From Candidatus Methanohalarchaeum thermophilum (GTDB taxonomy: Archaea > Halobacteriota > Methanonatronarchaeia > Methanonatronarchaeales > Methanonatronarchaeaceae): 64,000 nt of DNA. This document shows, one piece after another, positions 47,705 through 49,990 of the stretch; within the stretch, counting starts at the first letter, position 1, and every line of letters starts with the position of its first letter. The position numbers were made by a program, and so were the translations under genes. Under the pieces are notes generated by a model. The model worked only from the letters and a program-made list of their open reading frames with translations, did no database searches and was not told where the DNA came from. The DNA lies in contig MSDW01000001.1 of the NCBI GenBank assembly GCA_001914405.1, positions 1 through 64,000 of the forward strand. The letters are read 5' to 3'.

Positions 47705-48841
47705 ATGATGAAATCTGTTGTTGAAGACGCCCTCGAGAGGGCTGAAGAAGAAGAAAAACCTAATATGGATAATGAAGGAGTTAGACCTATTCAAAGTCCT
47801 GAAAAAGAGGAGGATGACAAGGAAATCAAAGAAGTAGTTAAAGAGCTTGGAACCACCATCAGAGTTGTAGGATGCGGTGGAGGCGGATCAAACACCATCA
47901 ATAGAATGATGGAAGAAGGCATAAAAGGATCAGAGCTTATAGCTTTAAATACTGATGCACAGCACTTAGTTAACACTAATGCCCACAAAAAGATATTGAT
48001 TGGTAAAAACAGGACAAAAGGACTAGGAGCAGGTAGTTTACCAAAAATAGGCCAAGAAGCAGCCGAGGAAAACAAGAAAGAACTAGAACAGGCCTTAAAG
48101 GGCTCTGACATGGTTTTCGTTACATGTGGACTTGGCGGAGGTACTGGAACAGGAGCAGCTCCAGTAGTTTCAGAAGTAGCAAAGGAAACCGGTGCATTAA
48201 CTATAGCAGTCGTAACTCTTCCGTTCAGTGTTGAAGGAAAAGTAAGAAAAGAAAATGCTGAAGCAGGATTAGAAAAACTCAGAAATGTAGCTGATACCGT
48301 GATAGTGATCCCAAATGATAAATTGATAGACACCGTTCCAAGATTACCGCTTCAGAAGGCCTTCAAAGTTGCAGATGAGGTACTAATGAGAGCAGTTAAG
48401 GGAATAACAGAGCTAATTACAAAACCAGGACTAGTTAACTTAGATTTCGCCGATATCCGAACAATAATGGAAGGCGGTGGAGTAGCAATGATTGGTGTAG
48501 GAGAAGCTGAAGGAGATGAAAGAGCTGAAGAAGCTGTACACAAGGGATTAAAAAGCCCTCTATTAGATGTAGATATAAGTGGAGCAGAAGCAGCTTTAGT
48601 AAATGTAACAGGGGGCACAGACATAAGCATATCAGAGTCAGAAGGCGTAGTTAAGGAGATATACGAGAGGATAAGCGACGAAGCAAGAATAATATGGGGA
48701 GCACAAGTTAACGAAGACCTAGATGACACAATGAGGGTTATGCTTGTAGTTACAGGAGTTAAATCGCCTCAAATTTTAGGAAGTACAGAAGAAGCAGAAG
48801 AAAAGGAAATGGAAAGCCATGGCATAGACTATGTTGGCTAA
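47705..48841 (+). CDS. ftsZ: Cell division protein FtsZ
   Basis: The 378-residue tubulin homologue has [13 protein letters not shown] near residue 57, the tubulin signature [11 protein letters not shown] near 143, and the T7 loop [11 protein letters not shown] near 248. An N-terminal acidic tail of about 45 residues precedes the core, and the C-terminus is short and acidic with no clear conserved tail. It is upstream of secE-nusG-ribosomal genes, a conserved euryarchaeal order. An AAGGGGACATT ribosome site precedes it. Confidence 0.95.
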
Positions 48842-48860
48842 ATAATCCGGCGGTGTAAAG

Positions 48861-49403
48861 GTGTCTTCTAGAGGAAAGGATCTAGGCGATAAGATAAGAG
48901 ACAAGCTAACAGAATACTTTAGGGTTTTAAAGCTCGCAAAAAAACCTGGAAAAGAGGAATTCAGCCAAATAACCAAGATATCTGTCATCGGTATACTCTT
49001 AGTAGGTTCAATAGGTTTCTTAGTTTATCTATCTATGAATGATATTCCAAACGCTATAGCAGACATGGATAAAGCAGAAATGCGTGCACAGTTCTTAAAC
49101 ACCATTGATCCTGATAAAGCTCAACAGACATTAGAGATACAGATCAACAATACTAATCCAGAGGTAAGCACAGGAAATATAACTGTAAGTTTCCAGCCAA
49201 TAAACTGTGAGCTAAAAGATGGAGAAACAAATGTAAAAACACCTCCTATACCACCGGATGGATCTTACCTAGTATCCGTTGATGTAATAAATATAACAGA
49301 TAGATCCAATTTAATCGCAAAGGTATGGGGTGAAAACCTAAAAAGGCATGAATCTGAAGGAACTGCCCTTGAGATTACAGCACAGGATACATCCCCATTC
49401 TAA
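48861..49403 (+). CDS. secE: SecE (Sec61 gamma) fused to an extracytoplasmic domain
   Basis: Residues 1-60 are SecE: amphipathic helix (LTEYFRVLKLAKKPGKEEF) and one membrane helix (about 37-58), and the gene lies between ftsZ and nusG as usual. Archaeal SecE normally ends there at about 55-65 residues, but this frame continues to 180 residues. The extra about 110 residues are beta-rich with several Asn-x-Ser/Thr sites and no second membrane helix. Given SecE topology they face outside the cell. The frame is intact and ends TAA. Start codon is GTG. Confidence 0.85.
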   Translation: MSSRGKDLGDKIRDKLTEYFRVLKLAKKPGKEEFSQITKISVIGILLVGSIGFLVYLSMNDIPNAIADMDKAEMRAQFLNTIDPDKAQQTLEIQINNTNPEVSTGNITVSFQPINCELKDGETNVKTPPIPPDGSYLVSVDVINITDRSNLIAKVWGENLKRHESEGTALEITAQDTSPF

Positions 49404-49498
49404 AAGATAAGTTTTATATATCCTCCGGAAAATTTCCTTACGCCCAATTTTACTTAGTTTCAACTTCATGAAATTTCAGTTTGATTGGAGGTATTATA

Positions 49499-49990
49499 TT
49501 GGTAGAAGAGAAAGATTTTGAGGAATCAAAGATATTCGCTTTAAAGACAACGGCTAACCAAGAAGAAGCCGTAGCTGACATGTTATATCAAGCTGCCAAA
49601 AGAGAAGGTTTTGATATTAGATCAGTTTTAGCTCCAGAATCCTTAAAGGGATACATACTGGTTGAAACACCAAGAGAAGACATAATTAGACAAGCATCAG
49701 AGAATATACCTCACTCAAAAGGCATTGTTGAAGGGGAAACATCTCTAGAAGAAGTAGAACACTTTCTTACGCCTAAACCAAGTGTTTCAGGCATATCAGA
49801 AGGAGATATAGTCGAATTAATTGCTGGGCCATTTAAAGGAGAAAAAGCAAAAGTAAAAAGAATAGACGAAACCAAGGAAGAGATCGTTTTAGAGCTATTT
49901 GAAGCAATGGTTCCTATACCAGTTACGGTTCAAGGAGATCATGTCCGCGTACTAGATCAACAGGAAGAAGAAATTGAGAACTCAAGTTAA
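49499..49990 (+). CDS. spt5: Transcription elongation factor Spt5 (NusG)
   Basis: The 163-residue protein has a NusG N-terminal domain ([25 protein letters not shown]) and a KOW domain ([25 protein letters not shown]). It binds RNA polymerase and couples elongation with ribosomes. I chose the TTG at 49499 because GGAGGT lies six bases upstream; the upstream TTG at 49481 would include that ribosome site in the coding region. It is part of the secE-spt5-L11-L1-L10-L12 cluster. Confidence 0.94.

Follow-up and report, generated by a model that had tools for sequence, protein, structure and literature searches.

SecE is a core subunit of the translocon and is almost always minimal. The locus described here raises the question of what a SecE would do with a folded domain attached behind its membrane helix, and whether the attachment is genuine. 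It lies in a window of 64,000 nucleotides from Candidatus Methanohalarchaeum thermophilum, a member of the Methanonatronarchaeia (hereafter the window genome).

The secE gene and its locus

The gene occupies positions 48861-49403 of the forward strand (GTG start, 180 codons, TAA stop). It forms a single frame of 180 amino acids without stop or frame break, and the opposite strand, in the frame read, contains many stops. Five bases 5′ of the GTG is found GGCGGTG (48849-48855, +), which is Shine-Dalgarno-like. The neighbours on the same strand are ftsZ upstream (47705-48841; PF00091, PF12327) and spt5/nusG downstream (49481-49990; PF03439, PF00467), the latter probably starting with the TTG at 49500. 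Then come L11 and further ribosomal protein genes, presumably L11 to L12 as named by sequence and order.

Residues 11-66 (48891-49058, +) match TIGR00327, the archaeal/eukaryotic SecE model, with 56.3 bits for a cut-off of 36.2, which places the protein in the SecE/Sec61γ family. The match to Pfam PF00584 is weak (20.4 bits, below the gathering score of 22.7). Residues 11-60 align with solved SecE/Sec61γ chains, and the full-length AlphaFold2 model shows SecE-type helices at residues 8-25 and 34-59, with low local confidence. Together, these chains and the model (AlphaFold2/DSSP) give the N-terminal amphipathic helix and the one membrane helix of a SecE, the latter encoded by 48960-49037 (+) and having a low local pLDDT. 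Beyond the membrane helix, a linker (residues 60-73; 49038-49079, +) with pLDDT mostly below 50 leads into the extension. The preliminary description had counted about 110 extra residues after the helix; this holds, since the predicted helix ends at residue 59 and is followed by about 120 residues. One SecE match and one SecY were found per genome, both here and in the relative discussed below. Thus, the gene encodes the only detected SecE of the cell, with a predicted Ig-like domain after the membrane helix.

The same fusion in a second genus

All 41 genomes of a first search have a SecE match. Besides the window genome, a whole-length match was obtained only in SCG-AAA382B04 (PZKD01000049.1), a single-cell genome of the same family and a different genus, the SecE of which matches residues 4-175 at 45%. 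The order ftsZ-secE-spt5 is common to both loci; in the relative, ftsZ lies 5′ and spt5, L11 and L1 lie 3′, with no separate gene between the secE fusion and spt5. The idea that an assembly error or a frameshift joins two genes, which would make the extended protein an artefact, is refuted by this second case and deserves practically no credence: frame, length and neighbours agree in two independently obtained genomes from two genera. The fusion, which the earlier description had proposed to look for elsewhere in the Methanonatronarchaeia, is therefore one gene in two genera of one family. The collection holds three genomes of the class, and the third, G002, from another family, has an ordinary SecE ending a few residues past the helix.

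Across 107 residues, the two extensions show 34% identity. Over 101 aligned columns the identity is 35%, far above that of 2000 column shuffles (mean 7%, maximum 15%). The proportions of differing synonymous and nonsynonymous sites are pS 0.77 and pN 0.45 in the extension vs pS 0.83 and pN 0.22 in the SecE core. The core is identical in 39 of 58 columns and the linker in 3 of 12 (residues 61-72), FtsZ and Spt5 both reaching 82%. The identity far above shuffles, together with the pS and pN values, indicates, for the two sequences that carry the domain, that the extension is under purifying selection, yet evolving faster than the SecE core, FtsZ and Spt5.

Several residues stand out in the alignment of the two extensions. 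The sequon N96-N97-T98 (49146-49154, +) is identical in the relative, and Cys116 (49206-49208, +), the only cysteine, is kept. A stretch at and after strand six, W156-x-E158-N159-x3-H163-x-S165 (49326-49355, +), is also conserved. N96-N97-T98, C116 and W156/E158/N159/H163/S165 are candidates for a working face of the domain. As to the several Asn-x-Ser/Thr sites mentioned in the preliminary description, three are indeed present (N96, N106 and N144, of which only N96 is kept in the relative), but their count is within chance for the composition: shuffled extensions have 1.5 on average and 16% of them reach 3. The extension of the relative likewise has no excess, with 4 sequons vs 2.5 in shuffles (22%).

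Fold of the extension

The AlphaFold2 model of the full-length protein, built with two sequences, has block-mean pLDDT values of 75-92 for residues 71-160, while the SecE half and the linker are modelled with poor confidence. A model of the domain only (residues 70-178) reaches pLDDT 83.7 and pTM 0.76 and has seven strands. The beta-rich character of the extension, proposed beforehand, is thereby borne out by structure prediction, DSSP placing seven strands between residues 74 and 173. Residues 74-175 (49080-49385, +) would thus form a seven-strand beta-sandwich, confidently predicted and broadly Ig-like.

Foldseek and a second aligner both return Ig-like sandwiches, among them BBS1, complement C3/C4/C5, bacterial alpha-2-macroglobulin, transglutaminase C-terminal domains and CARDB. 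The best Z scores of the second aligner are 10.5 for the full model (6vbu_1; rmsd 2.3, 96 aligned) and 10.4 for the domain model (6ru5_B; rmsd 2.4, 98 aligned). Chains of five TRAP-Sec61 entries (8btk, 9n9j, 8b5l, 8rjc and 8b6l) are matched by Foldseek only, at ranks 6, 9, 12, 15 and 33 with the full model (E 4.8e-4 to 3.3e-3) and at ranks 15, 17, 20, 21 and 44 with the domain model (E 6.3e-3 to 1.9e-2); their length would fit TRAPβ. With either model, the 50 best matches of the second aligner include no TRAP chain. On these predicted models, the fold match to TRAP is unspecific, complement and transglutaminase domains scoring as well or better.

By sequence, the extension is not recognised as a member of any family. 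A profile of the extension found nothing in the PDB up to E 10. In Pfam, the window extension has no match at E up to 10 and that of the relative has five, all under the cut-offs (best E 0.013); CARDB is matched by neither up to E 10. TRAP is not recognised by sequence either, PF05753 being without a match in the window genome and matching neither extension at E up to 10. The TRAP_beta model finds nothing in the window genome and gives weak matches, below cut-off, in SCG-AAA382B04 and G002; it is unspecific here, since six control genomes are matched as well, that of Bacillus subtilis among them. No true homologue of the extension was found at another place in the window genome, the sole weak match (E 0.57) being a chance one in a frame that reads, by eye, as a PAS/histidine kinase.

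Distribution and origin

In the phylum Halobacteriota, 379 of 392 genomes have a SecE. Every frame longer than 100 amino acids among the matches listed was read, the window genome being outside those listed. Within this set, a long C-terminus besides that of the window family was seen only in genus g4 of family f3. In the class to which genome G019 belongs, presumably the haloarchaeal one, SecE is present in 141 of 141 genomes; 8 frames of at least 104 amino acids were read, and the longest tail past the model match has 19 residues. The Asgard-group phylum, with a match in 130 of 139 genomes, yielded no comparable domain in the 9 frames of at least 96 amino acids that were read. No further folded SecE extension appeared among the matches listed for Halobacteriota or in the frames read from the Asgard-group phylum, surveys whose reach does not include Thermoproteota, Methanonatronarchaeum or the bulk of DPANN, nor more than a shallow sample of Methanobacteriota. 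On one Asgard-group contig of 3949 bases (G460:C78, about 1186 onward), a frame that opens as SecE reads on, with no intervening stop, into a putative Spt5/NusG, for 242 amino acids in all. An ATG lies at the junction, and the case may be a fusion, a missing stop or a sequencing error. A profile of the extension matched strongly in 2 of 294 phylum genomes, the window genome and SCG-AAA382B04; 7 further genomes gave weak, mostly partial matches (E 0.002-0.037). Among viral contigs, 97 pattern matches to the extension included no relative.

The f3 tails are of another kind. Six were read in genus g4: they extend 50-57 residues past the helix, consist of N, S and T for about half of their length, and have 3 to 8 sequons, a number above that of shuffles (<1%) in 4 of the 6. 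They are of low complexity and unrelated to the window extension. These SecEs also have an N-terminal addition of about 25-50 residues. A tree of FtsZ, Spt5 and L11, covering 28 of 30 loci, joins the window family and G002 (100), then family f10 (99), and places f3 elsewhere. The grouping agrees with the position of Methanonatronarchaeia as sister to haloarchaea, as stated in PMC5852551. Most simply, the domain would have been gained on the stem of the window family, and the f3 tail would have arisen separately, because the tree sets f3 apart.

A fused domain, expected to be an outer one and seen in one family only, is a new SecE architecture. Our literature search, with most subscription papers and preprints outside its scope, found nothing on SecE or SecD in Methanonatronarchaeia, on Ig-like archaeal SecEs or, going by titles, on a C-terminally extended archaeal SecE of this kind, and PMC5852551 and PMC10873845 gave no useful passage on Sec proteins.

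SecDF in the phylum

Euryarchaeota are reported to contain SecDF, implicated in the release of translocated proteins (PMC2910488). G002 has adjacent SecF and SecD genes. No SecDF was detected in the window genome or in SCG-AAA382B04, absences to be taken with caution at a completeness of 93-95%, on which the two carriers agree. Their SecD_SecF profile matches (2 and 3, respectively) all lie in HAE3/MMPL pumps, scoring best with the HAE3 transporter model, and the third match in SCG-AAA382B04 shares a frame with the second. One pump of that genome, of HAE3/MMPL-type RND family on the minus strand of contig C46, runs on, without a change of frame, into the beginning of an ABC-transporter ATPase domain, an unusual pump-ATPase fusion of which 1047 of 1240 amino acids were read.

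Across 147 phylum genomes, SecD_SecF matches are strong in 104 (best E 3.1e-15 or better), weak only in 13 (1.3e-10 to 0.001) and lacking in 30, the dividing line being our own. The weak-only set includes both carriers of the fused domain, and the f3/g4 genomes drawn have no match at all (7 of 7). SecE additions were seen only in genomes without SecDF, namely 2 of the window family and the 6 read of f3, a pattern that represents at most two origins and in which the SecEs of the 104 SecDF genomes were read in part. SecDF can be lost without SecE being extended, as in the many genomes of the phylum that lack the former and have the latter in its ordinary form. The proposal that SecDF loss explains the extension is weakened by families f6, f8, f13 and f17, which lack SecDF and have ordinary SecEs where read. 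The link between SecE extension and SecDF absence is a lead, not a proof. SecDF appears to be missing, or to escape recognition, in entire families of this sample (f3, f6, f8, f13 and f17), which would be a wider absence than the general statement on Euryarchaeota suggests.

Location and possible roles of the domain

Solved structures have established that the C-terminus of SecE lies outside. With this topology, the TIGR00327 match and the models support the position given in the preliminary description, a beta-rich domain outside the cell beside the translocon exit. SecE wraps around SecY at its hinge side (PMC2910488). A linker of about 14 residues would keep the domain close to the membrane, where the channel opens to the outside. 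There, it may act as a built-in translocon accessory, touching the outer loops of SecY and the emerging chain. It would help the channel to open, the chain to move forward or its folding to begin, as proposed for the lumenal Ig-like domains of TRAP at Sec61, and may take over part of the outer role of SecDF in a family without detectable SecDF. That the domain helps emerging proteins, as the preliminary description proposed, is plausible, a view strengthened by the Ig-like fold in common with TRAP and by the absence of SecDF. The recruitment of oligosaccharyltransferase or signal peptidase, the other role suggested there, would be a conjecture that the present results neither favour nor oppose. 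The complete proposal, a built-in outer accessory domain with TRAP-like action that may partly compensate for the missing SecDF, is put forward tentatively, its chances being somewhat short of even. Its boldest form, in which a prokaryotic lineage would have independently built a TRAP-like module fused to SecE and replacing SecDF at the outer channel mouth, is rather doubtful.

Other functions may be envisaged. The domain could be an anchor whose partner is the cell wall, AglB/STT3 or some other outer protein bound to the membrane. Without touching the chain, it would hold the translocon there, surface proteins being thereby glycosylated or assembled where they emerge. Both carrier genomes have one STT3/AglB gene, and the lone Cys116, the sequon and the W-x-E-N-x3-H-x-S stretch, all conserved, could form a binding face. 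Against this, no partner has been identified, STT3 lies far from secE in the window genome and on another contig in the relative, and the sequons of the extension are not enriched; such an anchor appears fairly unlikely. It may also be imagined that the extension is mere baggage, tolerated and at most mildly stabilising. It diverges faster than the core (pN 0.45 vs 0.22) and was seen in one family only. SecE evidently tolerates C-terminal additions, since a second lineage (f3/g4) has an unrelated low-complexity tail. The fold, the length and many residues have nevertheless been retained over a divergence that has brought synonymous sites close to saturation (pS 0.77), and we consider an extension without specific function unlikely. 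Finally, the SecE helix could double as a signal anchor, signal peptidase cutting the linker and freeing an outer Ig-like protein. Signal peptidase sites follow an A-x-A-like or Small-x-Ala rule, and such motifs occur in both linkers (AIA at residues 65-67, TMA in SCG-AAA382B04), the linker being moreover poorly ordered in the model. But Small-x-Ala motifs are common by chance, and we know of no cleavage of an ordinary SecE helix; this route seems quite improbable.

In G002, pieces of STT3 in two frames are found about 2 kb from secE (C7:20306-20793), and a longer STT3 match lies elsewhere in that genome.

Whichever role applies, an outer domain conserved on a core subunit would give a fixed 1:1 tether at the exit. 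A single domain swap or deletion could probe the contribution of an Ig-like domain at this site, and the same kind of question is posed by TRAP and by archaeal SecDF. From the SecDF pattern, one could also approach the matter of possible substitutes for SecDF in euryarchaea.

Comparison with known systems

The first half of the protein is an archaeal/eukaryotic SecE (Sec61γ) by its residues 11-66, its single membrane helix, its single copy and its position between ftsZ and spt5. The ordinary archaeal SecEs that were read stop a few residues after the helix at most; the SecE of the window genome has about 120 residues beyond it, including a folded domain predicted to lie outside. Among archaeal Ig-like domains, CARDB of Pyrococcus (3idu) is matched by Foldseek with E 2.1e-3, although Pfam CARDB does not match the window extension. 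SecDF, a membrane component of the export apparatus, also carries a large outer domain; it has an RND fold and is driven by protons. The fused SecE resembles it in having a large outer domain, but the window extension would comprise just one Ig-like domain and no motor.

TRAP has been reported from eukaryotes and from Asgard archaea (PMC11417166, PMC11186639). The transmembrane segment and lumenal domain of TRAPα bind the lumenal hinge loop of Sec61α, a conserved patch facing the emerging chain (PMC11186639). The lumenal Ig-like domains of TRAP are similar in size to the window extension, and the predicted model and its Foldseek matches give the latter the same broad Ig-like fold, one common to many unrelated families. 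No sequence similarity between the two was found. TRAP subunits are separate membrane proteins beside the channel, with their own signal peptide or membrane helix, whereas the window domain is fused to SecE. The expected place is alike, on the outer face at the hinge side of the channel: with SecE on that side of SecY and its C-terminus outside, the fused domain would arrive near the place of TRAP by another route.
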